From Acidobacteriota bacterium (lineage in GTDB: Bacteria; Acidobacteriota; Holophagae; Acanthopleuribacterales; Acanthopleuribacteraceae): a DNA stretch of 64,000 bases. The translations under genes and the position numbers were made by a program. Below are positions 29,682-63,680 of the stretch, in pieces. The first letter of the stretch is position 1. Every line of letters starts with the position of its first letter. Under the pieces are notes generated by a model. The model did not search any database. It saw only the letters and a program-made list of their open reading frames with translations, and had not been told where the DNA came from. The stretch spans positions 124,001 to 188,000 of the forward strand of contig JAGQSC010000025.1 in the NCBI GenBank assembly GCA_020439745.1, given 5' to 3'.

Positions 29682-32600
29682 TTAAGGTTGGCATCCGTCG
29701 ACATTGATATACAGAAAATCCCGGATGTCCATGAACCCGTCGTCGTTGGGATCACCCGCATACACCTGGCGCCAAAACTGTATGGCGTCCCACAAATCCT
29801 GCATTTCGCTACATCCACTGGCGTTCCAGTCCAGAATGTTGAAATGGTGCACCAGAACGGGCACAATTCGTGTCGCGGTGCTACCAAGTCCATCGGTGAT
29901 GCGAAACTCAAAAAAGCTGGTTTCGGTAAGTACCGGACGGATGTCGATGGGGTTTTGATTGACGGGGTACGTGAATCCACTCGTGAGGTTGCGCCACTGA
30001 ACGTCATAGGGTGGAACCGCACAGACGCTTTGCCCTAAGAGCTGCAGTTCGTGCACGCCTTGAGCCGCTGCAGGAGGCGTGAGTGTGGTTTCTAGTGGGG
30101 TGATCGTTACCGGCAAGGCTTGTGCGACACTTGGGCCGCATAAATTGTCGGCCGTGACTTGGACTTGGCCCGACAATGCGCCAAACATCACCGTCACGGA
30201 CGTGGTTCCCTGGCCAGCAGCCACAAACGCGTCAGCAGGTACCGTCCAACTGTAGAACATGGCTCCTGAGACCGCTGGTACAGTGTAGGTTTGCGATGCG
30301 CCCACGCAGGTACTGGTCGGTCCGTTGATTGGGCCGGGTGCGCTGGGCGGAGACAGGGTAAGGGACACGTTGAGCATGGCCGGTGAACTGCTGCCACAGC
30401 TGTTGTTTGCAGTCACCATCACTGGTCCGGGAGTCGATCCAAAAGTCACAGTGATTGATGCGGTTCCCTGACCCGATGAGATGGTTGACCCGGTTGGGAC
30501 GGTCCAGGTGTAGTCGTTTGCGCCACTGACTGGGGTAATGCTGTAAGGGACGCTTGTGTTTCCAGCACAGACCAGATTGGGTCCAGAAACAGCGCCGGGC
30601 TGATTCGGCAGGCTTAACACGTCGATGGGCAATTGCTGTGGCAAGCTGGTTCCACAGGAGTTTTGGGCCGTCACCGTTACGGAACCCAGTGTCGCACCAA
30701 AGGACACTTCGATGGATGGGGTGCCTTGACCGCTAGTGATATTGGTACCGGTCGGTACAGACCAGTTGTAGGCAGTTGCTCCAGCAATGGGCGCAATACT
30801 ATAAACAACGCCGGAATCGCCCGCACAAACGGATATGGGCCCGGAGATGGATGATGGTTGGCTGGGTGCGCTTCTGATGCTAACGCCTAGGGATTGAACA
30901 GCACTTGCGCCGCAAGGATTGGTCGCCGTGACTGTGATATCGCCACCCGTCGTGTCAAAGGTTACCGTAATGGCGTTGGTACCCTGACCGGACGTGATCG
31001 TAGCCCCTATGGGCACCGTCCACGCATATGAACTGGCCCCCGTGACCGGTGGGATGCTGAATACGTGACCTGACGTACCGGAGCAGATGGATGTCGCCCC
31101 TGCGATCATGCCAGGCATTTCTGGCGTCCAACATAGACTGAAGAGAAAAGCGTCTGTCGAGCCGAGTTGGGTCGTGATGTAACCATTGGTCGGAAAATCG
31201 GATGAGTCCGTGTAGCCCGCGATGTAAGCATTTCCCGTGTTGTTGAGTGTCAGAGCGGTGGCGGAATCGTCGCGGGAACCGCCCATGTAGGTGCTGGAGT
31301 GCAGGTTGGAAAGGGTTACATCGAATGTGCTGACAAATGCGTCGATCTGTCCATTGTGACTCGCGTCAGGCGGTGAACCTGCTGTAGGAAAATCGACCGA
31401 ATCGGTTTGGCCGGTCACGTAGGCATTGAGCGACATATCCAGAGCGATCCCAAATGCTGCATCGGAACCGGACCCGCCCAATAGCGTGCTAGCCGGGAGC
31501 GCCGATCCAGACGCATCGACAAGTGCTATGAAGGCATCGGACGGACCGTTGCGTGTGGTATCGAAACCGTTGACAGGGAAGTCGTTGGAATCTGTTTCTC
31601 CGGCAACATACACGCTACCGGTAGGCGTCAACGCGAGCGCATAGCCAAAATCGACGCCAGTCCCTCCCAGAAAAGTGCTGAAATTTAGTGCTGAGCCGTC
31701 ACTGTTGAGCGCAGTCAGAAACACATCGGATCCGCCCTGGTGAATTTCCGCGTAGGCACCTGGAGTGGAGGGGTAATCGTAGGAAAGTGTGGATCCCACG
31801 GTGATCACATTTCCCGATGGGTCGACCACAACATCGACGGCCGCATCGTAGTCCGACCCCCCTAGGAACGTGCTGAAATTCAAGGATGTACCCGCAGCAT
31901 CCAATTGGGTGATGAACCCATCGTAGTTACCCCCTATGGTTTGTGAAAACGCACCCATGGTTGTAGGAAACATGGGCGAGTTGGTGTAGCCCGATACCGT
32001 GGGTACGTCGCTTGTTCCTAGTGCCACCGCAGTTGCGCTATCGTCACCCGCGCCGCCTAAGAAGGTACTGTACACGAGGCTTGTCCCTGCGGCGTTCAAC
32101 ACACACAAAAAGGCATCATTGTTCCCGTTGCACGTTACGTCAAACACCCCGCTGGTGGTGGGAAAGTTGGGGGAAGCTGTAGAGCCCACGACAAACGCCT
32201 GACCCAGACTGTCGACGGCAATTCCGTGACCGCTGTCGTCACCGGATCCCCCGATAAACGTGATATAGGCGGGGTTTCCTGCTTGGTCAAATTTGGCAAC
32301 AAAAGCGTCGTATCCGCCGCTGTTGAATACGGAAAAGGGCGTGCCGAATCCAAAACTCAATACCGACTCCGAGGTACCGGTCATATACACATTCCCCAAT
32401 GAGTCCAAGGTCACGTCGCGACCATATTCGTGCGTGGTTGCGCCGAGAAAAGTGCCGTACACCAGAGATGATCCGCTTGGATGGATTTTGCACACAAACG
32501 CCACTAAAGAGTCTGGTCTGATTTCCTGAAACGAACCCGGCGTTGCGGGAAAATCGACTGACGCAGTGGACCCCGCAACAAACGCATGACCAGACGCGTC

Positions 32601-34499
32601 CACAGCGATGCTTCCTGTGTACTCGTAGCCTGATCCACCGAGGTAGGTACTGAAGACCATACTGGTTCCTGCGGCGTTGAGGACGCTGATGAATGCGTCT
32701 CGAACCGTTCCATAACTGGTATCTAAGGCACCGGTCGTCGTTGGGTAATCACTGGAATCCGTGAGGCCAAAAACATAGACCCGATCACTCGTATCCACAT
32801 CCAATCCATACGCGCTGTCGTCAGAAGTACCGCCTAGAAAGGTGCTGAATATCAAGGCGGTACCTGCGTTGTTTAGTTTTGTGACAAAGGGGTTGAGGCT
32901 GTTGACGGCCCCATTCCACGACGTATCATACGCGCCCATGGTTGTTGGGAAAAAATACGAGGCTGTCTCGCCAGTAATGACCGGGTTTCCGCTGCTATCC
33001 AGGACCACGTCGCGTGCGCGGTCAAAGGCATTGTCGCCCACCAGCGTGCTGAAGATCAGTCCTGTACCGGTTGCGTTGACTTTGGTGACAAACACATCCC
33101 TGTTAAAAGAGTAGGTCGTATCGTAGGCCCCCATGGTGGTTGGGAAGTCACTGGAGTCGGTATCACCCGCACACACGGCGTTTCCTGAACTGTCAACTGC
33201 GACCGACCAAGCATTGTCACTGCTGCTACCCCCAAGGTATGTTCCATAGTTTAGCGCCGTGCCTGATGAATTAATGGCTGCGCAAAAGGCATCGGAAGGT
33301 CCTGTACGTGTCGTGTCGTAAGCCCCTGTGGTTGTAGGAAAATCAAATGACTCGGTCCAACCGACCACATATGCAGTGCCAGCACTGTCGATATCTAGGC
33401 CTGTGATGTAGTCTTCGTTAGCACCACCGACAAAGGTGCCAAAGAGGAGGGCTGAACCCGTAGGGTTCAGCTTGGCCACAAAACCATCTAAGTCACCTCC
33501 CAAGGTGGTATCTAATGCGCCCATACTTGTAGGAAAGTCGACCGAGCTGGTGGTTCCTACGACGGTGACGTTGCCCGCGCTGTCTACCTTGATGCGGGCG
33601 GGACTGTCTTCGGCTGAACCGCCCAGAAAAGTACTGTAAACCAGATCCGTACCCAATGGATTCAGTTTGCTCACAAACACATCGTTGAATGAATTGTTGG
33701 TATGGTTGGGGTCGAATGCGCCTGGAGTGGTTGGAAATGAGCCTGAGGCGGTACTGCCTGCCACGTAGCTGGCGCCTGTGCTGTCGATGTCAATCGCATA
33801 GGCGTTCGACGAATGATTTCGACCGTTCACATAGGTTCCCCAGGTCACGGTGGGATCGATCACCAGCGCAATGTGAGGGTCGAACTTGCCGAGTTTGAAT
33901 TGGTATCGCCCGTGAGCCATGGGCAAGAATACGACGGGGACGTCGTGATGCACACCGTTGATTATTTGGAACGCACGAGGGGCTGATATGCGCAGTTTCT
34001 GTGCCCCTACATTCACCGTTAGGTGACCATCAGGTGCTAATTCCAAAGACCTGGCTCCGGTGCACATGATAATTTGCGAGGCATCTGATCCAGGAGCGAT
34101 ATCGATGCGGAAAGTCAAATCACCATCATCTATTTGATAGGTCACATCAATTCCGGGCCAGACATTAGGGTAAACGAGCGTCATCCACGTCGATTGATGG
34201 GTGAGCCAATCATCAGGTTTTCCAATCAAATAGTTGACCACCCCGGACTTTGGCTGTGTCAGTTTGGGCGTGACTTGTCGGTCGGTCTCAAAACCTATGC
34301 GCAGCTTGTAGGGCATTGCGCCGCTGGTGAGTAGCAAGGCTCCTTCGCCCGTAAAATGGGCCGACCCAGATTGGGTGTAGGCTAAAGCCACGACGGATGG
34401 GTCATGGACGATTCGTTGCTGGGCGTTGGCGACAAAGAACCGGGGCGCGGAGTTCGGTACCGACCCTAACAAGAAACTCACGAACAACCATATGGCCAT
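29682..34499 (-). CDS. Giant secreted SBBP-repeat protein with PKD-like domains and C-terminal dockerin-like segment
   Basis: A 1605-residue exported protein. Residues 1-25 form a signal peptide. About 25-225 form the globular N-terminal domain that often precedes SBBP repeats. About 230-1125 hold some 14 SBBP beta-propeller repeats of about 60 residues (core LxYSTFLGG...VDSxGNxYVxGxT...DFPTT). About 1130-1475 hold four PKD-like/Ig-like modules, each with a Cys pair (SICSG...NPCG). The last 50 residues contain DPNDDGFMDIRDFL and end near a Cys, like a dockerin or sorting tail. GGGAGG precedes the ATG. An adhesive or cell-surface role is inference. Confidence 0.92.
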   Translation of the reverse strand: MAIWLFVSFLLGSVPNSAPRFFVANAQQRIVHDPSVVALAYTQSGSAHFTGEGALLLTSGAMPYKLRIGFETDRQVTPKLTQPKSGVVNYLIGKPDDWLTHQSTWMTLVYPNVWPGIDVTYQIDDGDLTFRIDIAPGSDASQIIMCTGARSLELAPDGHLTVNVGAQKLRISAPRAFQIINGVHHDVPVVFLPMAHGRYQFKLGKFDPHIALVIDPTVTWGTYVNGRNHSSNAYAIDIDSTGASYVAGSTASGSFPTTPGAFDPNHTNNSFNDVFVSKLNPLGTDLVYSTFLGGSAEDSPARIKVDSAGNVTVVGTTSSVDFPTSMGALDTTLGGDLDGFVAKLNPTGSALLFGTFVGGANEDYITGLDIDSAGTAYVVGWTESFDFPTTTGAYDTTRTGPSDAFCAAINSSGTALNYGTYLGGSSSDNAWSVAVDSSGNAVCAGDTDSSDFPTTMGAYDTTYSFNRDVFVTKVNATGTGLIFSTLVGDNAFDRARDVVLDSSGNPVITGETASYFFPTTMGAYDTSWNGAVNSLNPFVTKLNNAGTALIFSTFLGGTSDDSAYGLDVDTSDRVYVFGLTDSSDYPTTTGALDTSYGTVRDAFISVLNAAGTSMVFSTYLGGSGYEYTGSIAVDASGHAFVAGSTASVDFPATPGSFQEIRPDSLVAFVCKIHPSGSSLVYGTFLGATTHEYGRDVTLDSLGNVYMTGTSESVLSFGFGTPFSVFNSGGYDAFVAKFDQAGNPAYITFIGGSGDDSGHGIAVDSLGQAFVVGSTASPNFPTTSGVFDVTCNGNNDAFLCVLNAAGTSLVYSTFLGGAGDDSATAVALGTSDVPTVSGYTNSPMFPTTMGAFSQTIGGNYDGFITQLDAAGTSLNFSTFLGGSDYDAAVDVVVDPSGNVITVGSTLSYDYPSTPGAYAEIHQGGSDVFLTALNSDGSALNFSTFLGGTGVDFGYALALTPTGSVYVAGETDSNDFPVNGFDTTRNGPSDAFIALVDASGSALPASTLLGGSGSDAAFGIALDMSLNAYVTGQTDSVDFPTAGSPPDASHNGQIDAFVSTFDVTLSNLHSSTYMGGSRDDSATALTLNNTGNAYIAGYTDSSDFPTNGYITTQLGSTDAFLFSLCWTPEMPGMIAGATSICSGTSGHVFSIPPVTGASSYAWTVPIGATITSGQGTNAITVTFDTTGGDITVTATNPCGASAVQSLGVSIRSAPSQPSSISGPISVCAGDSGVVYSIAPIAGATAYNWSVPTGTNITSGQGTPSIEVSFGATLGSVTVTAQNSCGTSLPQQLPIDVLSLPNQPGAVSGPNLVCAGNTSVPYSITPVSGANDYTWTVPTGSTISSGQGTASITVTFGSTPGPVMVTANNSCGSSSPAMLNVSLTLSPPSAPGPINGPTSTCVGASQTYTVPAVSGAMFYSWTVPADAFVAAGQGTTSVTVMFGALSGQVQVTADNLCGPSVAQALPVTITPLETTLTPPAAAQGVHELQLLGQSVCAVPPYDVQWRNLTSGFTYPVNQNPIDIRPVLTETSFFEFRITDGLGSTATRIVPVLVHHFNILDWNASGCSEMQDLWDAIQFWRQVYAGDPNDDGFMDIRDFLYINVDGCQP
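31130..33810 (-). repeat. Array of about 14 SBBP-coding tandem repeats (~180 nt period)
   Basis: Imperfect direct repeats of about 180-190 nt encode the SBBP blades within the 1605-residue protein. I counted 14 blades by the recurring (D/N/S)FPT(T/S)xGA(Y/F/L) segment. Divergence between copies is high, so the array is old rather than recently expanded. Confidence 0.8.
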
Positions 34500-37063: not shown

Positions 37064-37915
37064 ATGAAAACCAAAATGGTCTTACCTAAAGGCCGCATGT
37101 TGGATAAAGTCATCGAGCTTCTCGACGAGTGCGGCATCTCTGTAGCCGGAAACGGACGTAACTATCGCCCCAATTGCAGTGATGCCAATCTGGAACTCAA
37201 ATTGTTGAAATCTCAGAACATTCCCCAATTAGTCAGCTTGGGTCAACACCACTGTGGCTTTGCAGGAAGCGATTGGGTCGAAGAACAAGCAGCCGATGTC
37301 ATCAACGTGCTTGATTTGGAGTTAGATCCGGTCTCAATTGTTGCGGCTATTCCCGAAGACTCGAATTGGGAACAGATGAAGAAGCGGAAATTGATCGCCG
37401 TTTCCGAGTACGAGCGTTTGTGTTGCCAGTTTTTGGATCGCGAAGGTGTTGAATACACATTTGTGCGCTCATTCGGCGCAACGGAAGTGTTTCCTCCGGA
37501 AGATGCTGATTTGGTGGTCGACAATACAGCCACAGGAACGACGTTGGTTGAGAACAGGTTGAAAGTCGTGGCGACGTTGATGAAGAGCTCGACGCAGTTC
37601 ATTGCCAATCGCGCAGCTATGGAAGACCCCCGTCAGCGAGATCGCATCGAAAATATCGCACTCATTTTTCGCAGTATTCTGGATGGCCGGTCCCGGGTCC
37701 TCTTGGAGATGAATTGTGCGGAAAGCTGTCTATCTGAATTGGTGCAGCTTCTGCCGGCTATGAAGGCGCCCAGTGTGGCCAAACTATTCGGCGATCAAGG
37801 GTTTGCTGTGAAGGCCGCGGTACCACGCCGTGAAGTTAAGGACTTGGTACCTCTGCTCAGATCGGCGGGCGCTACCGACATTCTGGAACTCGATATTCGC
37901 AAGGTCATAGCCTGA
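37064..37915 (+). CDS. hisG: ATP phosphoribosyltransferase, long form
   Basis: Catalyses the first, feedback-controlled step of histidine synthesis (ATP + PRPP). The 283-residue length includes the C-terminal ACT-like regulatory domain of the long form (about 210-283, PSVAKLFGDQGFAVKAAVPRREV), so no HisZ is needed. Conserved blocks are LPKGRM at the N-terminus, GFAGSDWVEE and the PRPP loop DLVVDNTATGTTL. It is the first structural gene after the attenuator and is followed after 6 nt by the hisC fusion. Confidence 0.96.
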   Translation: MKTKMVLPKGRMLDKVIELLDECGISVAGNGRNYRPNCSDANLELKLLKSQNIPQLVSLGQHHCGFAGSDWVEEQAADVINVLDLELDPVSIVAAIPEDSNWEQMKKRKLIAVSEYERLCCQFLDREGVEYTFVRSFGATEVFPPEDADLVVDNTATGTTLVENRLKVVATLMKSSTQFIANRAAMEDPRQRDRIENIALIFRSILDGRSRVLLEMNCAESCLSELVQLLPAMKAPSVAKLFGDQGFAVKAAVPRREVKDLVPLLRSAGATDILELDIRKVIA

Positions 37916-37921
37916 GGTGAT

Positions 37922-39580
37922 GTGATGTTTGGAACCTGGATCAATCAGGCTGATATTTTGAAAGTGGACCAAAACGAGCGCAGTGAAGCACCGCCTGCTT
38001 GGGCCGAGTCCACGTTACGCGAACTGACCCCTTTTGTCCTGAACAGATACCCACGCCGCCAGCGTCTCGAGTCTCTGCTAGCCCAAACAAATGGGCTTGA
38101 AGCAGACCAGGTGCTGGTGACCAATGGCAGCGATGAAGCCATTCAATACCTTTTCCAGTCACTGGCAGTCAATCAACGCATCATTCTTCCGCTCCCCACT
38201 TTTGGCATCTATCAGGACCAAATAAGACGTTGGCCTGTAGATGCGGTGGTGATTCCGCCACTTGCTGGTCTCAGACTTAATATGGATGCGACCATTGATT
38301 CCATTAAGCAGCGTGATCTTGTGATTATCGTGCGACCCAACAACCCAACTGGGGAAATGGTCGGCGACAACCAAATGAACCGTCTTTGGCGCGTTTGTCA
38401 TGAGCGAGGGGCGCGATTGCTGCTTGACGAAGCATATACGGATTTCTGCGGAACCAGCTGGATAGACCGCGTTACAAAGGGATCACCGCTTATGGTGTTG
38501 CGCACCTTTTCGAAGGCATACGGCCTGGCTGGAATGCGCGTGGGTTACGCCGCTGCCGATGCACTCTGGCTAAACCAACTGCGTGGCCGCTGCATGCCCT
38601 ACAATGTATCCACACCCGCGTTAATGCTGGCCGAGCGAGGGTTGGAGGCCGATGCGCAACGAGACGTAGCCAACTACACAAAATCCGTGCGCGCCAATCG
38701 CATGGCTTTATGTCGTTTATTGGATGACCTCAAGATTCCTTATGTACCCAGCGAGGCGAACTTTGTGATGATCCAACTCGGATTGGAAAGGGCACAGTTC
38801 TTTCGCAGTGCCATGGCCCATCAAAACGTGGCTGTGCGCATGTTTGATCGGCCTGAACTTGTAGGCTGGGTGCGCGTTTCCATTCCCTTGAATATTGAAC
38901 GATTGCTGCATGCGGTGAAGATGGCGCTGAGCCCTCAACTGGTGTGTTTGGATGTGGATGGCTGTCTGGTTGATGTTCGCACCAGCTTTGAACAGGCCAT
39001 CGTCGAAGCGGTTCGCCGACTCGGGGGCGGAGAGGTGACGCGGGAAGAGATCGTCGCCAAACGTCGATTGGGAGGCTACAACGACGATTGGGTGCTTACT
39101 CATGCGCTGTTGATTGATCGAGGCTGCTCGGTTCCGATGGCACTCGTCCGCAAAACATGCGATGCGATCTACTGGGGCACTGGCGATTGTTTGGGAACTG
39201 CAGCCAACGAAACACCCTTGCTGGAACAAGAAACGCGTGAATATCTCTGCAGTCGAGCCACCTTGTCACTTGTCACTGGGCGCTCACGGCGGGAATTAGG
39301 CCCAGCCATTGAGTTACTGGGATTAGAGCCCCTGATACCGGCCGCAACAATAGATTCTGTTTCGAACGGAAAACCTGACCCGGAAGGCATCTTGATGATG
39401 ATGCAGAAAACCAACTGCCAACGGGCCTGGATGGTTGGCGATAATGTGGACGACATAGCCGCTGCGGTCGCCGCGGGTGCCATACCCATTGGTGTCGGCT
39501 CGGATCTTGGAGACGCACTCATGGCTGCCGGTGCCATTTACGTTTTGGACGATATCAACAAGATAAGGAGCATCTTATGA
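37922..39580 (+). CDS. hisC: Histidinol-phosphate aminotransferase fused to a HAD phosphatase
   Basis: A 552-residue two-domain protein. Residues 1-335 are HisC, with PLP Lys198 in RTFSKAYGLAGMRVG. Residues 340-552 are a HAD-superfamily hydrolase with nucleophile Asp344 and Asp346 (CLDVDGCLVD), the Thr motif SLVTGR, KPDPEG and the acidic motif MVGDNVDDIAAA. HisB in this operon lacks a phosphatase domain, so the HAD half is a strong candidate for the histidinol-phosphate phosphatase, the step right after HisC. It overlaps hisB by ATGA. No frameshift or linker stop is visible. Confidence 0.93.
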   Translation: MMFGTWINQADILKVDQNERSEAPPAWAESTLRELTPFVLNRYPRRQRLESLLAQTNGLEADQVLVTNGSDEAIQYLFQSLAVNQRIILPLPTFGIYQDQIRRWPVDAVVIPPLAGLRLNMDATIDSIKQRDLVIIVRPNNPTGEMVGDNQMNRLWRVCHERGARLLLDEAYTDFCGTSWIDRVTKGSPLMVLRTFSKAYGLAGMRVGYAAADALWLNQLRGRCMPYNVSTPALMLAERGLEADAQRDVANYTKSVRANRMALCRLLDDLKIPYVPSEANFVMIQLGLERAQFFRSAMAHQNVAVRMFDRPELVGWVRVSIPLNIERLLHAVKMALSPQLVCLDVDGCLVDVRTSFEQAIVEAVRRLGGGEVTREEIVAKRRLGGYNDDWVLTHALLIDRGCSVPMALVRKTCDAIYWGTGDCLGTAANETPLLEQETREYLCSRATLSLVTGRSRRELGPAIELLGLEPLIPAATIDSVSNGKPDPEGILMMMQKTNCQRAWMVGDNVDDIAAAVAAGAIPIGVGSDLGDALMAAGAIYVLDDINKIRSIL

Positions 39581-40143
39581 TTGAGCGGAAGCGGACGACA
39601 CACGAAACGGACATCTCATTAAAGCTCCGCCTGAAAGGCGCGGGTCGTGTGGATGTGACAACGGGACATGGCTTTTTTGACCATATGCTGCATCAGTTGG
39701 CTTATCACGCAGGGATGGACTTGAACTTGAAAGCGATTGGCGATCAGACAGGGGATCACCACCTGGTTGAAGACGTGGCCATTTGTTTGGGTGACGCATT
39801 TCAGGAAGGGTGGCGCAATCAAAACGGCCTCAATCGTTTTGGACATACCATTTTGCCCATGGATGATGCGCTGGTGATGTGCGCAACCGACCTATGTGGA
39901 CGCGCCTATTGTGAGGTTGATCTGAAGCTCACACGGGAAACCGTGGGTGGTTTGGATACAGAAATGGTCCCACATTTCTTTCGCAGTTTCAGTTCAGCAT
40001 CCATGATCAACCTGCATTTAAAAACATTGTCTGGAACCAATCATCACCACGTGATCGAAGCCGCATTTAAGGCGACTGCACGTGCATTGCGCCAAGCCTT
40101 GAGCCAAGACATGATCACCTTCAGTACCAAGGGGGCTCTGTGA
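39577..40143 (+). CDS. hisB: Imidazoleglycerol-phosphate dehydratase
   Basis: A monofunctional IGPD of 188 residues, manganese-dependent. The metal-binding repeats are HGFFDHMLHQLAYHAG and GDHHLVEDVAICLG in the first half and FFRSFSSAS...GTNHHHVIEAAFKA in the second. There is no HAD domain, unlike the bifunctional E. coli HisB. It overlaps hisC by ATGA and hisH by 4 nt. Confidence 0.97.
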   Translation: MIERKRTTHETDISLKLRLKGAGRVDVTTGHGFFDHMLHQLAYHAGMDLNLKAIGDQTGDHHLVEDVAICLGDAFQEGWRNQNGLNRFGHTILPMDDALVMCATDLCGRAYCEVDLKLTRETVGGLDTEMVPHFFRSFSSASMINLHLKTLSGTNHHHVIEAAFKATARALRQALSQDMITFSTKGAL

Positions 40144-40709
40144 TTGGTATTGTGGATTGTGGCTCCGGAAACATTGCATCGGTTCGTTTAGCTTTCGATC
40201 GATTGGGTGTTCCTACCGATATCCGCACCCTGCCGGACGTATCTGATTTGCAGGCCTTGGTCTTGCCAGGACAAGGTCGGTTCGGGACGGTGATGAACGC
40301 TTTGACCGAACGAGGATGGGATGATGTTTTGAAGGGTTGGATCGAAGCAGATCGCAAGTTTCTGGGTATCTGTGTGGGCATGCAGGTTCTGTTTGAAGGG
40401 TCTGAAGAAGATCCAGGCGTTTCGGGACTGGGGATGTTAACAGGAACAGTCAAGCGGCTTCGGGCTCCCAAAAACCCGATGATGGGTTGGGCAAGGGTCT
40501 GTTGGCGCGATTCGATTTTTTCGGACGGGTCCGCGTTCTTCGTCAATGGGTATGCCGTGGCCAAGTCCGATGTGTGTTGTGCCACCACTGAATATGGTGA
40601 GCCGTTTTGCTGCGCCGTACAGCGTGGGCACATGTTTGCCACACAGTTTCACCCAGAAAAGTCCGGAAAATGGGGACAGGAGGTTCTACGCCAATGGATC
40701 AACTCCTGA
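40140..40709 (+). CDS. hisH: Imidazole glycerol phosphate synthase, glutamine amidotransferase subunit
   Basis: A class I glutaminase of 189 residues that supplies ammonia to HisF. The nucleophile Cys is in GICVGMQVLFEGSEE; the catalytic His and Glu are in QFHPEKSG. The GTG start overlaps the hisB stop. The 3' end overlaps hisF by 16 nt, keeping the two subunits of the heterodimer tightly coupled. Confidence 0.96.
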   Translation: MIGIVDCGSGNIASVRLAFDRLGVPTDIRTLPDVSDLQALVLPGQGRFGTVMNALTERGWDDVLKGWIEADRKFLGICVGMQVLFEGSEEDPGVSGLGMLTGTVKRLRAPKNPMMGWARVCWRDSIFSDGSAFFVNGYAVAKSDVCCATTEYGEPFCCAVQRGHMFATQFHPEKSGKWGQEVLRQWINS

Positions 40710-41461
40710 AACGCATCATTCCGTGTCTTGACGTAGACGGAGGACGCGTCGTCAAAGGTACTCATTTTGTCAATCTCAGGGATATGGGTGACCCGGTGGA
40801 ACTGGCAGTCCGATACGAGACACAAGGCGCAGATGAAGTCGTATTTCTCGATATCAATGCCTCTGCTGAACATCGACCAACGGCTCTGGATATGGTGCGC
40901 AGAGTCGCTGAGTCTCTTTCGATTCCGTTTACCTTGGGAGGAGGCCTTCGAAGCGTGGATGACATGTATGCGTTCCTTGATGCTGGGGCAGATAAAGTGG
41001 CGCTGAACTCAGCCGCCCTCCATGACCCGGGACTGGTGGAACTGGGGGCCCGTCAGTTCGGCTCGCAGTGCATGGTGGTAGCGATGGATGTCAAGTTAGA
41101 ACCGGCCGGATACCACGGTGTCTATTCCCACGGCGGACGGAAACAAACCCGTTGGACAGCCAAATCATGGGCTCGGGAAATGGTGAACCGTGGCGCTGGC
41201 GAGCTGTTGCTTACCAGCATTGACCGTGATGGAACAGGGTGCGGATTCGATATGGACATCATTGAACCCATCGCGCGTACCCTACCCATTCCCGTGATTG
41301 CGTCTGGCGGCGCAGTGAACGACGATCATTTCATCACCGCGTTCCGGCGTGGCGCCGATGCGGCGCTTGCAGCAACCATGTTCCACTCGGGCGACGTGAT
41401 CATCGGCGATCTGAAACGCGCATTGAACCGTGCGGGCATCCCCGTACGATTGGATTATTAG
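40694..41461 (+). CDS. hisF: Imidazole glycerol phosphate synthase, cyclase subunit
   Basis: A 255-residue TIM barrel that forms imidazoleglycerol phosphate and AICAR. The catalytic Asp residues are in [15 protein letters not shown] and [13 protein letters not shown]; phosphate sites are GGGLRS and ASGGA. The start at 40694 is chosen by homology and GGAGG upstream; a longer frame overlapping hisH is a shadow. The start lies inside hisH. Confidence 0.97.
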
Positions 41462-41473
41462 GGAGAGTCCCAT

Positions 41474-42709
41474 ATGTTTATTCCGAGCATCGATCTATTT
41501 GACGGAAAGGCTGTCCAATGGCGTCAAGGTCAACAGGCAGTACTTGAAAGGGATGATGTGTTCGAGTTGCTCGACGCGTTTTCACTTTTTGGGGAAGTGG
41601 CGATTGTCGACCTCAATGCGGCCCTTGGCAAAGCAGACAATCGCGACTTGATTCACCAGCTCTTACGAAGGCATCCTTGCCGCGTTGGGGGCGGTATCCG
41701 CGATAAGCAATCGGCCATGGACTACATCAAGGCGGGCGCAAGCAAGGTGGTCCTGGGAACAGCTGCCCGGGAACCATTTGTGCGAGAGCTGCCTCGTGAA
41801 GCTGTGGTCGTGGCATTGGACTCAAAAGCTGACACTTGGGTGACCCACGGATGGACAGAGTCCAGCCCCTTGACCACTCAGGACGCCATGGCTGCCTTGG
41901 GAAGTGTGTGTAGCGAGTTCCTATATACCCAGGTCGAAAAGGAAGGCATGATGTCGGGCCTGGATCGCGAACGGGTGGAAAGGGTGGTTACGACATCACC
42001 TGTGCCAGTCACGGTTGCAGGAGGCGTGACCACGGCAGATGATATTTCATACCTGCATCGTTTGGGTGCAAAGGCACAAATCGGTATGGCCATTTACACC
42101 GGTGCGCTCAGCTTGACCGATTGTCTCTTGGCCTGCCTCGATTTTGACAAGGCGCCACTGGTCCCCACGGTGGTTCAAGACGTTCACTCAAGGGAAGTGC
42201 TTATGGTGGCCTATTCTTCACAGGAATCCCTGTCCCGAGCATTGGCAAGCAAAGCAGGAGTCTATTACAGTCGAAGTAGGCAAGCACTTTGGACCAAAGG
42301 CGAAACTTCCGGCCATCGACAAAAACTGGTTCGAGTGGATGTGGACTGTGATGGTGACAGCCTTTTGTTTCAAGTGGAGCAAACAGGCCCCGCCTGTCAT
42401 CTGAACCGACCTAGCTGTTTTTCAACCGTTCAGCCCGGATTCGACCTAACGTCGCTTGATCGCGTTATTCAAGCGCGCCGCTGCCACGCGCCTGAAGGTT
42501 CTTACACGGCGACGCTTTTTGAGTCTCAGACACTAAGAGAGTCGAAGCTCAATGAGGAAGTAGCCGAGCTTATTGAAGCGACTTCCTTTTCTGAGAAGCG
42601 CTGGGAGGCGGCTGATCTGCTCTATTTCACACTTGTTGAGGCTGCAGCACACGACGTCCGATTAATCGACATCATCAGTGAATTAAGGAGTCGTCATGCG
42701 GATCATTGA
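41474..42709 (+). CDS. hisA: HisA-HisI-HisE trifunctional fusion
   Basis: A 411-residue fusion for three consecutive steps. Residues 1-222 are a HisA-type isomerase barrel (FIPSIDLFDGKAVQ with the first catalytic Asp, RVGGGIRD, VVALDS with the second Asp). Residues 225-325 are HisI, PR-AMP cyclohydrolase (DVDCDGDSLLF...GPACHLNRPSCF with zinc ligands). Residues 335-411 are HisE, PR-ATP pyrophosphohydrolase (KLNEEVAELIEA...WEAADLLYF). In the HisA half the usual TDIxRDG reads TQVEKEG around residues 151-157; the essential Asp pair is kept. It overlaps hisD by 14 nt. Confidence 0.93.
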   Translation: MFIPSIDLFDGKAVQWRQGQQAVLERDDVFELLDAFSLFGEVAIVDLNAALGKADNRDLIHQLLRRHPCRVGGGIRDKQSAMDYIKAGASKVVLGTAAREPFVRELPREAVVVALDSKADTWVTHGWTESSPLTTQDAMAALGSVCSEFLYTQVEKEGMMSGLDRERVERVVTTSPVPVTVAGGVTTADDISYLHRLGAKAQIGMAIYTGALSLTDCLLACLDFDKAPLVPTVVQDVHSREVLMVAYSSQESLSRALASKAGVYYSRSRQALWTKGETSGHRQKLVRVDVDCDGDSLLFQVEQTGPACHLNRPSCFSTVQPGFDLTSLDRVIQARRCHAPEGSYTATLFESQTLRESKLNEEVAELIEATSFSEKRWEAADLLYFTLVEAAAHDVRLIDIISELRSRHADH

Positions 42710-43907
42710 TCACCCGGACGCTTGGCGACGTCCCCAGAACGTCGATTCCAAAGAACTCGAGCAGCGCGTGCAGCAAATTGTTGACAGAATCCAGGTCCAT
42801 GGCGAACAGGCGCTTCGAATACTCAGCCAAGAGATTGATGGATTCATGCCTCGCGTCATCGAGTTATTGCCCTGGACTCAATATCCTTTGGCTCGCAAGG
42901 AACTGGATTGGATCCAAAACGCCGGAAAACGGATCGAACGATTTGCCAAGAAACAGCGAGCCTGCCTAAAAGATCTTACCTTTTCGGACCATTGCGGATC
43001 CTATGGACATCGGTGGCTACCGCTCGACCGTATGGGTGCATACATTCCGGGCGGTCGTTACCCCTTGGTTTCGACCGCTTTGATGACGTTGGTTCCCGCT
43101 CGAGTAGCAGGGGTGGTGCAACGAGTGGCTGTATCTCCCAGCGATGACGCGGGCGTTCTGGCAGCTGCCAGTTGGGCTGGTGCAACGCATTTTGTACAGG
43201 TAGGTGGGGCCCAAGCCATTGCAGCTCTAGCCTTTGGCACCGAGTGTGTGCCCCGAGTAGACATGATCGTGGGACCGGGAAACGCTTACGTGAATATGGC
43301 GAAACGGGTCGTTCAATCCCATGTGAAAATAGACAGCCTTGCAGGACCCAGCGAGTTGTTGGTTCTGTGTGATCAAAGTAGCCGAGCCGAATGGGTTGCC
43401 TACGACTTGTTGGCGCAGGGAGAACACGATCCCTTGGCGCTGGCGATGTGCGCCAGCACCTGCCGCAATCAATTGGAACAGGTCATGTCGGTGATTCAAC
43501 GGGAGCTTGGACCGGATCCAAAAGGTCGGGGTTCATTCCAATTTGTCTTTTGCGAATCACGTGATGACGCCTTGCACTTTGCGAATCAGGTCGCTGCCGA
43601 GCACCTCTCGCTAGCTTGGCAAGATCCCGAAAGCGACATAGAGATTCTGCGACATTATGGTTCCTTGTTCATCGGCCTAGGAAGCCCAGTGGCTTTGGGA
43701 GACTATTGCAGTGGACCTAATCACACCTTACCGACTCTGGGTAACGCCCGCATGAAGGCAGGCCTGTCGGTACTCGATTTTTTGCGGCCGCTTACCTGGC
43801 AGCGCATCGAATCAAGTGGTTACGACAAGCTCGCCGAGATTGGCATGGGACTCGCGAAATTGGAAGGACTGGACTACCATTACGCCAGCTTAAAAAAACG
43901 GAGATGA
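42696..43907 (+). CDS. hisD: Histidinol dehydrogenase
   Basis: A zinc enzyme that performs the last two oxidations to histidine. It has GAYIPGGRYPLVSTALM, VDMIVGPGNAYVN, IDSLAGPSELLV and the zinc ligands in QGEHDPLA, GDYCSGPNHTLPT and EGLDYH. At 403 residues it is slightly shorter than average because of a short N-terminus. AAGGAG precedes the ATG. It ends 4 nt before the EVE gene, so the operon may continue. Confidence 0.96.
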   Translation: MRIIDHPDAWRRPQNVDSKELEQRVQQIVDRIQVHGEQALRILSQEIDGFMPRVIELLPWTQYPLARKELDWIQNAGKRIERFAKKQRACLKDLTFSDHCGSYGHRWLPLDRMGAYIPGGRYPLVSTALMTLVPARVAGVVQRVAVSPSDDAGVLAAASWAGATHFVQVGGAQAIAALAFGTECVPRVDMIVGPGNAYVNMAKRVVQSHVKIDSLAGPSELLVLCDQSSRAEWVAYDLLAQGEHDPLALAMCASTCRNQLEQVMSVIQRELGPDPKGRGSFQFVFCESRDDALHFANQVAAEHLSLAWQDPESDIEILRHYGSLFIGLGSPVALGDYCSGPNHTLPTLGNARMKAGLSVLDFLRPLTWQRIESSGYDKLAEIGMGLAKLEGLDYHYASLKKRR

Positions 43908-60542: not shown

Positions 60543-63500
60543 TTAGATACACACGCCCCCTAGGATACTTATCAGGTTCCTGATGTCCAGGGTGATGGCC
60601 CAATCCGGGAGGCTGGGTAGCACGCTGCCAATGCCTCCCGATTCGTCGATGGGTTCTGGAAACAATGGATCAACGGTGGGGAACGATATGTCGTCCAGCC
60701 ACCAGCCTTGCCCCCCAACCGCGCCGTCACAACCTTCACGGAATCGGATCCAAACCGTTTGTCCTGCATAGGTGTTGGCCAGATTCACGTTCACTGTGGT
60801 GAAGGCGGGCCAGTCGGGACTGTTGTTGACAAATGCCGGACGGTCGGTAATCGGGCTGGCAGGGTTCGTGGTGATGGTTCCGTTATAACCCGGTGATGCG
60901 GAGGCTCCGATGTCAATCCAATTAATACCATCGGTACTCAACTCCAGAACCCCACCGTCCCAGGAACCAGACTCAAAAGAGTGCCTGTGGTTGAAGCTGA
61001 ATGTGAAGTCTCCAACTGGGTTGACGTCGATTGCAGGACTTGTGAGAAAGGAGTCCAAAGCGGTGGTGATATCCGGCACAAAGTAGGCATGCGTGCCACT
61101 GGTTGAAAACCCATCCTCAACCACCGACCACAGTTGTGTGCCTGTATCCACGGATACGTCCCAAGCTACCAATCCTTCAGCGTCGTCTGTTTGTCGGGTG
61201 AACACGCGGTCAAAGTGGACGACCCACGACTCCGAGGTCATTTGGGGTGCGATCTGCATCGTGTCTTCATAGCTGATATCCAGATTCAGCAGTTCTTGTC
61301 CCGCCGCACTATTCAAGGTTACTTCAATGGAGCCTGTCACTGAATCGCCCGCGGCTGTACTGCCAAACATCATTACCCCGCCATTGGAAAAGCTCACGTC
61401 GTTCAAAGAACTCATAGTCGCTTGTAGATTGTCCAAATTGCCAATGCCTGAGTTTTTCAAGGTGATTTGTAGGAGACCTGTCTCACCGGCGTCTAAGATG
61501 CCGTCGTTGTCACAGGAATTGATGCTGTCATCCAACTCAGCCGATACAAATTCCACCACATAGCTAACCGGCACAGGATTGTAGTCTTCCACAACTCCGA
61601 CCAGGGTCGTGGAATCCCGAGGTGGCGATACGGCTGTTTCGCCCATTCCTCTCCTGGCAAAGGCATTCGAAAAGACGCTGAAATCGGCGGGATCGTTGGC
61701 ATAAGCTGCCATTAGTAGGGCGTCGCGCGCTTCCGTGTAGGTTGGGTTGGATGGGCTGAGTTTCAGCGAAGTCACCAAATAGGTTTGCATGAGGTTCTTC
61801 ACGTCTTGAAAGGGTTCCATCGAGTGGGCCACCAATAGGTCGTGGTAACACTCCCAAATCATTTGACACCACACCTCGCCAGCATTGTGCACTTCTGCGT
61901 TACCGTTGTTCTCCCATCCCAGTGGTGAGATAGGTGCGCCACCTGGTATCCCGAATGTAGGATCAATGTGGCCAAACGTAAGGGGATTCTTGGTCATATC
62001 GACCGAGTAGGGAAAGCGCCGAATGCCGAAATAGAAATTGTCCACGAATGCGGGTGGAGCGAACAGGTCGCGGGTCGCGTAAGCGCCTGAAGCGTAGGCA
62101 CCGGCAAGATTGTCACCTTCTTCCACGGCCATGATCAGCGCTATCACGTCACCCCAGCCTTCGCTCATGGCACCCGACTGACGGTTACCTGCCACGGGGA
62201 CCAATCGGTGGTGCCAGTAATGGCCCCACTCGTGACCAGAGATGCCATTATCAATGGTCCCATCCCTGTCGGGTGTAGGTCCCGTAAATACAAACATTTG
62301 CATACGCGGGCGTGCGCCGTCTGAAGGTGTGGACATGTTGGCATTATTGGTGCCGGTACCATCTTGACATTCTGAACGCATACTATCGCTGTCGTTACCG
62401 CCACGTCCAAAGTTGTCAGCCTGAGCATTACCAGCAGCTTCGTTGAAACCTGCGTCGTAATAGTCGTCATGAAGGTAATTGCACACATAGAATAGTTGGG
62501 TGATGGCCGCGTTTTGCTGGGTAGTGTTTGCCGTGGGTGCGAGACCGAAGTCGTAGGTGTAGTCAAATGTGCCAGGAGACGAAACAGCTGCCCTGAAATC
62601 GCCGCTACCGGGTGAATATCCGTCGCCGCCGAACCGATCGATATAGGCATCCACATTGTTACCTACCGTCTCGGTAGCTGCGGGCGGGAGCCATGGGTCG
62701 TTCATGCTGAAAGGCAGGTTCTGCAAGGTGACGAGTGCTGGAGATTGAAACGGCTCTTGAAAACCGTCGGGCATACCCGTGGGATGTGGTGTGCCACCGT
62801 TTCCTTGAGGGCCGTCCCATGGTTCAAACCCCGGTGCCCCATTGGCCATCACGCGATAGGTGTATGAGTCTGAAACGGTGAGATTAGTGCGTTCCAACAG
62901 TTGCCCGTCTTCGGCCGAAATGACATAGGCAAACATCTCGGAAGATGTCGCATTAGCGGTGCCCGCATCCACCTCTAAGTAATAGGCGGGAATGAGGCGG
63001 GTGCTCGTGCCATAGAAAACAGGTTTGATTCGGGAAGGCGTGATAAAAAAATGATCCTGTGGGGCTCGTGTTCCTTCGCGAAAATCAAAGAGGAGGTATT
63101 CGTCTTTCTGAGTGATGAAGACAAAATCATCGGCAGAAACTATATCGTGAGTCAAATCAGTAAAGGCTGTTGCAATGGCCTGCATTTCGTTTAAGTTCCA
63201 AATGTAAGCCTTGTGGATCTCATGCGGGAAAAGGTATCCCGTAATGCCCTGCAAATTCATGTGCCGGTCCATCAAAACGCTGGTTTGAGCTCCGTAGACA
63301 CCGATGCCGTCTAACGATTGTTCGAATTTCACTACAATCGGTCCCTTACCAAGGTCATGTATGTACTTCACTTGAGCAGTATTAAGGGTGTCGGTCGTGT
63401 AGCCATATAACAGGCGGTACATGCTCAAGTAGTTTTTTGCCTGTGTCTCGTGGCTGCGTGATTTCGCGGCCGCATCCGCAGCTTTAGTTATCCAGGCTAT

Positions 63501-63680
63501 GGTTGGGATGCCCAATCTGGGTTCAAATGCCAATCGGTTGATATGTCCAGGCAGATCTTGGGGTGTGCGTAGCGGGGTCGATACCTGCTCACTCATGAAC
63601 GCACTGAAATTAATGGGTGCATGTTTCGTGGCCAGGTTGGAACTTTGAAAGCATGTGAAGGCGATCATCAAGAAGTGCAT
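60543..63680 (-). CDS. Secreted M36 fungalysin-type metalloprotease with C-terminal tail
   Basis: A 1045-residue exported zinc protease. A short signal peptide and an FTP-type propeptide precede the M36 domain. The zinc motif is GHEWGHYWHH with the third ligand in SEGWGDV. After about residue 690 come beta-sandwich modules (GLLQITLKNSGIGNLDNLQ; a module with WWLDDISF). The last residues, DIRNLISILGGVCI, resemble the DIRDFL...C tail of the SBBP protein. AAGGA precedes the ATG. It likely digests extracellular protein. Confidence 0.94.
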   Translation of the reverse strand: MHFLMIAFTCFQSSNLATKHAPINFSAFMSEQVSTPLRTPQDLPGHINRLAFEPRLGIPTIAWITKAADAAAKSRSHETQAKNYLSMYRLLYGYTTDTLNTAQVKYIHDLGKGPIVVKFEQSLDGIGVYGAQTSVLMDRHMNLQGITGYLFPHEIHKAYIWNLNEMQAIATAFTDLTHDIVSADDFVFITQKDEYLLFDFREGTRAPQDHFFITPSRIKPVFYGTSTRLIPAYYLEVDAGTANATSSEMFAYVISAEDGQLLERTNLTVSDSYTYRVMANGAPGFEPWDGPQGNGGTPHPTGMPDGFQEPFQSPALVTLQNLPFSMNDPWLPPAATETVGNNVDAYIDRFGGDGYSPGSGDFRAAVSSPGTFDYTYDFGLAPTANTTQQNAAITQLFYVCNYLHDDYYDAGFNEAAGNAQADNFGRGGNDSDSMRSECQDGTGTNNANMSTPSDGARPRMQMFVFTGPTPDRDGTIDNGISGHEWGHYWHHRLVPVAGNRQSGAMSEGWGDVIALIMAVEEGDNLAGAYASGAYATRDLFAPPAFVDNFYFGIRRFPYSVDMTKNPLTFGHIDPTFGIPGGAPISPLGWENNGNAEVHNAGEVWCQMIWECYHDLLVAHSMEPFQDVKNLMQTYLVTSLKLSPSNPTYTEARDALLMAAYANDPADFSVFSNAFARRGMGETAVSPPRDSTTLVGVVEDYNPVPVSYVVEFVSAELDDSINSCDNDGILDAGETGLLQITLKNSGIGNLDNLQATMSSLNDVSFSNGGVMMFGSTAAGDSVTGSIEVTLNSAAGQELLNLDISYEDTMQIAPQMTSESWVVHFDRVFTRQTDDAEGLVAWDVSVDTGTQLWSVVEDGFSTSGTHAYFVPDITTALDSFLTSPAIDVNPVGDFTFSFNHRHSFESGSWDGGVLELSTDGINWIDIGASASPGYNGTITTNPASPITDRPAFVNNSPDWPAFTTVNVNLANTYAGQTVWIRFREGCDGAVGGQGWWLDDISFPTVDPLFPEPIDESGGIGSVLPSLPDWAITLDIRNLISILGGVCI

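Follow-up and report, generated by a model that had tools for sequence, protein, structure and literature searches.

Does one open reading frame in the his operon of this acidobacterial genome encode a single working enzyme for three consecutive steps of histidine biosynthesis and, if so, how did such a gene come about? The frame, here called hisAIE, lies in a stretch of 64,000 nucleotides that was analysed as a whole (the window); the host is a relative of Acanthopleuribacter and Sulfidibacter. We are largely confident in predicting that its product carries out steps 2-4 as a working trifunctional enzyme, descended from one fusion of an 'EG'-type hisA with hisIE that subsequently spread.

The hisAIE gene and its operon

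The frame starts with ATG downstream of a purine-rich GGGAGAG and contains zero internal stops (Table 1). Its His_biosynth, PRA-CH and PRA-PH matches all exceed the Pfam gathering scores (for PF00977, 138.3 bits against 23.6), which bears out the original prediction that enzymes for three consecutive steps are joined in one 411-residue protein; its further claims, a TQVEKEG motif in the HisA half (T152 to G158) and a domain order opposite to that of the pathway, hold as well, HisA-HisI-HisE corresponding to steps 4, 3 and 2. The product passes the NCBIfam equivalog for HisIE (NF002747, 188.1 bits, cut-off 187) and falls short of that for HisA (TIGR00007, 151.3 bits, cut-off 228.95), and NCBIfam therefore names a bifunctional HisIE and leaves the HisA half unnamed. 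Across 49 fused proteins the HisI residues D291-C-D-x-D295, C308, H309 and C315 and the HisE residues E361, E362, E365, E378 and D381 are invariant. We take D291, C292, D293, D295, C308 and C315 to be the metal site, and assign roles to these and to the HisE acidic residues from solved families.

Table 1. Features of hisAIE and the surrounding his operon (positions in the window).
Feature	Position	Strand	Details
hisG, long form with C-terminal regulatory domain	37064..37915	+	PF01634 + PF08029
hisC fused to HAD hydrolase domain (candidate histidinol-phosphatase)	37922..39580	+	PF00155 19-331, PF00702 340-519
hisB, dehydratase domain alone	39577..40143	+	PF00475
hisH	40140..40709	+	TIGR01855 over cut-off
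hisF, usual TSIDRDG motif	40694..41461	+	TIGR00735 over cut-off
hisAIE, predicted trifunctional ProFAR isomerase / PR-AMP cyclohydrolase / PR-ATP pyrophosphohydrolase	41474..42709	+	411 aa
HisA (His_biosynth) domain, residues 3-212	41480..42109	+	PF00977 E 3.4e-40; Foldseek best PDB match PriA 3zs4
TQVEKEG motif, T152-G158	41927..41947	+	E157 aligns with catalytic Asp176 of Salmonella HisA
HisI (PRA-CH) domain, residues 244-316	42203..42421	+	PF01502 E 1.2e-31
HisE (PRA-PH) domain, residues 326-408	42449..42697	+	PF01503 E 1e-17
hisD	42696..43907	+	TIGR00069 over cut-off

Structure prediction, which had been proposed as a check, gave a confident AlphaFold2 model (49 fused sequences as input; mean pLDDT 92.5, pTM 0.87), in which Foldseek matches the barrel to PriA and HisA (3zs4, 5ahe, 5a5w) and the C-terminal half to HisIE (6j22) and HISN2 (7bgm/7bgn). 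The last helix of the predicted barrel (214-220) nearly abuts the first strand of HisI (230-236) with no spacer domain between them, and LDFDK in the product is the counterpart of E. coli HisI LDWEK, which lies close to the N-terminus. The protein thus shares with bifunctional HisIE (E. coli HisI, plant HISN2; PDB 6j22, 7bgm) the arrangement of PRA-CH followed by PRA-PH, the metal-site and acidic residues and a passing NF002747 score, but differs from it in carrying a full HisA barrel at the N-terminus.

The gene is the sixth of a compact seven-gene operon, hisG-hisC/HAD-hisB-hisH-hisF-hisAIE-hisD (37064-43907, + strand), in which hisC/HAD overlaps hisB by 4 nt, hisB overlaps hisH by 4 nt, hisH overlaps hisF by 16 nt and the 3' end of hisAIE overlaps hisD by 14 nt. 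The hisC/HAD protein matches TIGR01548 below its cut-off. Its HAD domain may be the histidinol-phosphatase, since hisB has no phosphatase domain and a search for a PHP-type phosphatase (TIGR01856) found none; inositol-phosphatase-like genes are present and score under the HisN cut-off. Of 10 HisC proteins from other operons with hisAIE that were tested, 9 also had a HAD domain at the C-terminus. Elsewhere in the window, both on the minus strand, are a protein of 1605 aa that contains four PKD-like domains, SBBP repeats and DUF7948 (29682-34499) and one of 1045 aa that has an M36 metallopeptidase domain of the fungalysin type (60543-63680); Rfam and tRNA scans of the 64,000 nt returned no matches.

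Residues and predicted function of the HisA domain

All three activities of the hisAIE product are predicted from conserved domains and residues. The C-terminal HisE domain would convert PR-ATP to PR-AMP, the middle HisI domain would open the PR-AMP ring to give ProFAR, and the N-terminal HisA barrel would isomerise ProFAR to PRFAR, the substrate handed to the HisF/HisH synthase encoded just upstream. With E. coli HisA as the reference for numbering, the catalytic D7 and also R83, D129, T171 and G177 are kept in all 115 fused HisA domains and W145 in 114, but Asp176 is replaced by Glu and Ser202 by Ala in every one, and Arg15 by Gln in 114 of 115. D176 (D175 in PriA), in the RDG motif, is the catalytic aspartic acid of HisA, and Arg19 of PriA, at the position of HisA Arg15, is required to recruit it (PMC9088769; PMC13055916). 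The domain therefore has the barrel, D7, D129, W145 and R83 in common with monofunctional HisA (PDB 5ahe) and PriA (PDB 3zs4), and is set apart from them by Glu176, Gln15, shorter loops, the attached HisIE and a TIGR00007 score under the cut-off.

One candidate explanation, that the KEG motif arose together with the fusion, was rejected: standalone HisA relatives have the motif too, so it is not a product of fusion. Eleven unfused relatives (L125, L128, L134-L141, L153), from other Acidobacteriota and one DPANN genome, likewise carry Gln15 and Glu176, while a further unfused relative (L016) has Asp at 176 and so stands outside this set. The EG-type HisA that occur unfused in other Acidobacteriota (L125, L136, L138 and others) share with hisAIE the signature VVQL, CRVGGG and T-x-V-D-x-EG, but are standalone genes that follow hisH-hisF, mostly in operons whose 5' end carries hisI as a gene of its own. 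The two of them scored against TIGR00007 reach 157.5 and 186.7 bits, both under 228.95; because tested members of the subfamily score below the NCBIfam cut-off, a HisA of this type is easily missed. Glu176 and Gln15 co-occur throughout the fused and EG-type unfused clade, which has one common ancestor, and their co-occurrence is therefore not independent evidence that the two are coupled. We infer that Glu157 of the hisAIE product acts as the general acid in place of Asp.

Is the barrel instead catalytically dead or weak, kept for a structural or regulatory role while another enzyme isomerises? We consider this improbable. Loss of activity would agree with the replacement of Asp176 and Arg15 in the whole clade, with the missed isomerase equivalog cut-off and with the second HisA-like gene of some fusion-bearing genomes, but D7, D129, R83, W145 and T171 are strictly or almost strictly conserved, and standalone EG-type HisA genes sit in normal his operons of other Acidobacteriota, so that the EG motif accompanies an ordinary operon context. 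Nor is a substitute at hand in the host genome (5.1 Mb, 97% complete), where hisF and hisAIE are the two PF00977 genes and where the whole fused protein, used as query, retrieved itself and HisF, with no other HisA, HisI or HisE match. By full-length PF00977 matches, 13 of 18 other fusion-bearing genomes hold no further HisA, which makes a dead domain unlikely; an additional HisA-like gene is present in HR33, in a MAG of the Holophagaceae and in three genomes of Pleionea, so the fused HisA is not the sole candidate everywhere. The second gene of the Pleionea genomes (L198, L199, L200) is diverged, lies outside the his operon and scores 114-124 bits on TIGR00007.

Slightly less probable still is a barrel with shifted or double specificity, acting as a PriA-like HisA plus TrpF or on another aminoaldose. 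HisA relatives do switch readily between HisA and TrpF (PriA literature, PMC13055916), and loop residues differ in the fused HisA; however, Trp145, which stacks on ProFAR, is retained, the position of PriA Arg143, which binds PRA, is not Arg in most fused proteins, and that of PriA Arg19 is Gln in all fused domains except one. The host genome, moreover, has two PF00697 (TrpF) matches over the cut-off.

Distribution and origin of the fusion

The HisA half of fused proteins was used as query against 84,980 species genomes. Out of the 583 relatives retrieved, the best 80 were examined by translation. HisA is joined to HisI in all 80 of these best relatives, and HisE is in the same frame in most of them. 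Three full-length frames of 405-409 aa (L061, L072, L086) have no scored HisE, one locus has HisE in a separate short frame (L045), and one frame ends at the end of its contig (L097). In all, an uninterrupted fused frame occurs at 115 loci. These come from many phyla and assemblies, among them the genome of Sulfidibacter corallicola, which is a single contig. Separate hisA and hisIE genes do neighbour each other elsewhere, as a frameshift or missed stop merging the two would need, but with the same intact frame at so many loci, and no spacer between the domains, we give an artefact practically no weight; a sequencing error that joined two genes, raised with the original prediction as what would undo it, is excluded.

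The bacterial carriers are Acidobacteriota, Gammaproteobacteria (Pleionea, Marinicella), Gastranaerophilales/Melainabacteria (gut relatives of Cyanobacteria), Gemmatimonadota, Sumerlaeota, Planctomycetota, Myxococcota and one MAG labelled Bacteroidetes; the archaeal ones are the DPANN groups Woesearchaeota, Diapherotrites and Nanoarchaeota. Among 396 Acidobacteriota genomes sampled, at least 20 have the fusion, an uninterrupted full-length match was found in a single one of 229 sampled genomes of the class of Pleionea (Pleionea itself), and in the phylum of the Woesearchaeota genome the fused protein is present in 5 of 193 genomes and an unfused relative in one. The spread of the fusion is thus wide but patchy. 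Among mobile elements, a scan of IMG/VR for relatives of the fusion confirmed none, and a plasmid search found only separate his genes among the matches listed, each match being in two pieces.

In most loci outside the gut Cyanobacteria group the fused gene lies between hisF and hisD, whereas in that group hisD usually comes next after it and the remaining operon genes do not adjoin. At eight fusion-bearing loci (L094, L098, L104, L106, L108, L110, L118, L119) a single frame scored as both HisH and HisF, a possible bacterial HisHF fusion that is tentative, as GC-rich DNA gives long frames. The unfused EG-type relatives have the order hisH-hisF-hisA, and in most of them hisI stands by itself at the 5' end; the placement of hisA downstream of hisF therefore seems to predate the fusion.

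Both halves of the protein were examined phylogenetically. In a careful HisA-domain tree of 73 rows a single branch separates the 52 fused sequences from all others (bootstrap 93, SH-aLRT 88; present in 94% of the bootstrap trees); they are adjoined by 13 unfused HisA with the same signature, and the usual type of HisA, that of E. coli included, lies outside this combined group (100/100). The HisIE tree splits fused from unfused proteins with an SH-aLRT of 100, its unfused sample being mainly gammaproteobacterial and from Holophagae, and a tree of HisI only, which takes in the standalone HisI of unfused relatives, supports the fused split at 97 on a short alignment; neither the HisI tree nor the careful HisA tree includes L152, a diverged archaeal fused protein. 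Subgroups match between the halves: the window's protein groups with the Acanthopleuribacter-type, Pleionea and Marinicella proteins, and DPANN with Melainabacteria. Since fused proteins cluster in both trees and their subgroups agree, the data fit one fusion with later joint transfer, for which support from the HisA half is moderate. The fusion would have been made once, end to end, from a hisA of the distinct 'EG' subfamily and a hisIE gene, and the fused gene would then have spread, often with its operon, over bacterial phyla and into DPANN archaea; these transfers and their direction we infer. To the fuller proposal, in which the EG subfamily, common in Acidobacteriota and present in many phyla and in DPANN archaea, works with Glu and Gln15 in spite of a catalytic Asp supposed to be fixed, and one of its branches fused once to HisIE to give a trifunctional enzyme that crossed domains of life, often with the whole operon, we would give an even chance.

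Relation to known his fusions

Multi-enzyme fusions are familiar from the his pathway, as in yeast HIS4 (HisI-HisE-HisD) and HIS7 (HisH-HisF), but the partners there differ and neither contains HisA (PMC1963479). The survey of Fani et al. 2007 gives the hisA/hisF elongation, hisIE, hisHF, hisNB and hisIED, and no HisA-HisIE (PMC1963479). A single sentence, on cluster 787.1, records HisA/F-HisIE fusions in four archaeal assemblies (PMC11237513); this is probably the same protein family as hisAIE, whose members include DPANN, though that sentence leaves HisA or HisF open and draws no tie to bacterial genes, the operon or the HisA motif. Beyond PMC11237513 we found no report of HisA-HisIE in the open-licence literature, where 'hisAIE' as a name returns unrelated acronyms. 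The original prediction's view of the added HisA as unusual therefore stands against published lists of his fusions and fails in genomes, where the fusion is already widespread across phyla; the literature has hardly registered it. The enzymes themselves are known; what is new is how they are arranged, which has hardly been described.

The 2007 list holds five his fusions; hisAIE adds another, which apparently originated a single time and occurs in at least eight phyla, archaea included. It also explains why hisA can seem to be missing from such genomes: the protein is recognised, or almost recognised, as HisIE, but the score of its HisA part stays under the HisA cut-off. Finally, it offers a natural test of whether Glu can replace the catalytic Asp of HisA, whose barrel is a common model in studies of enzyme evolution.
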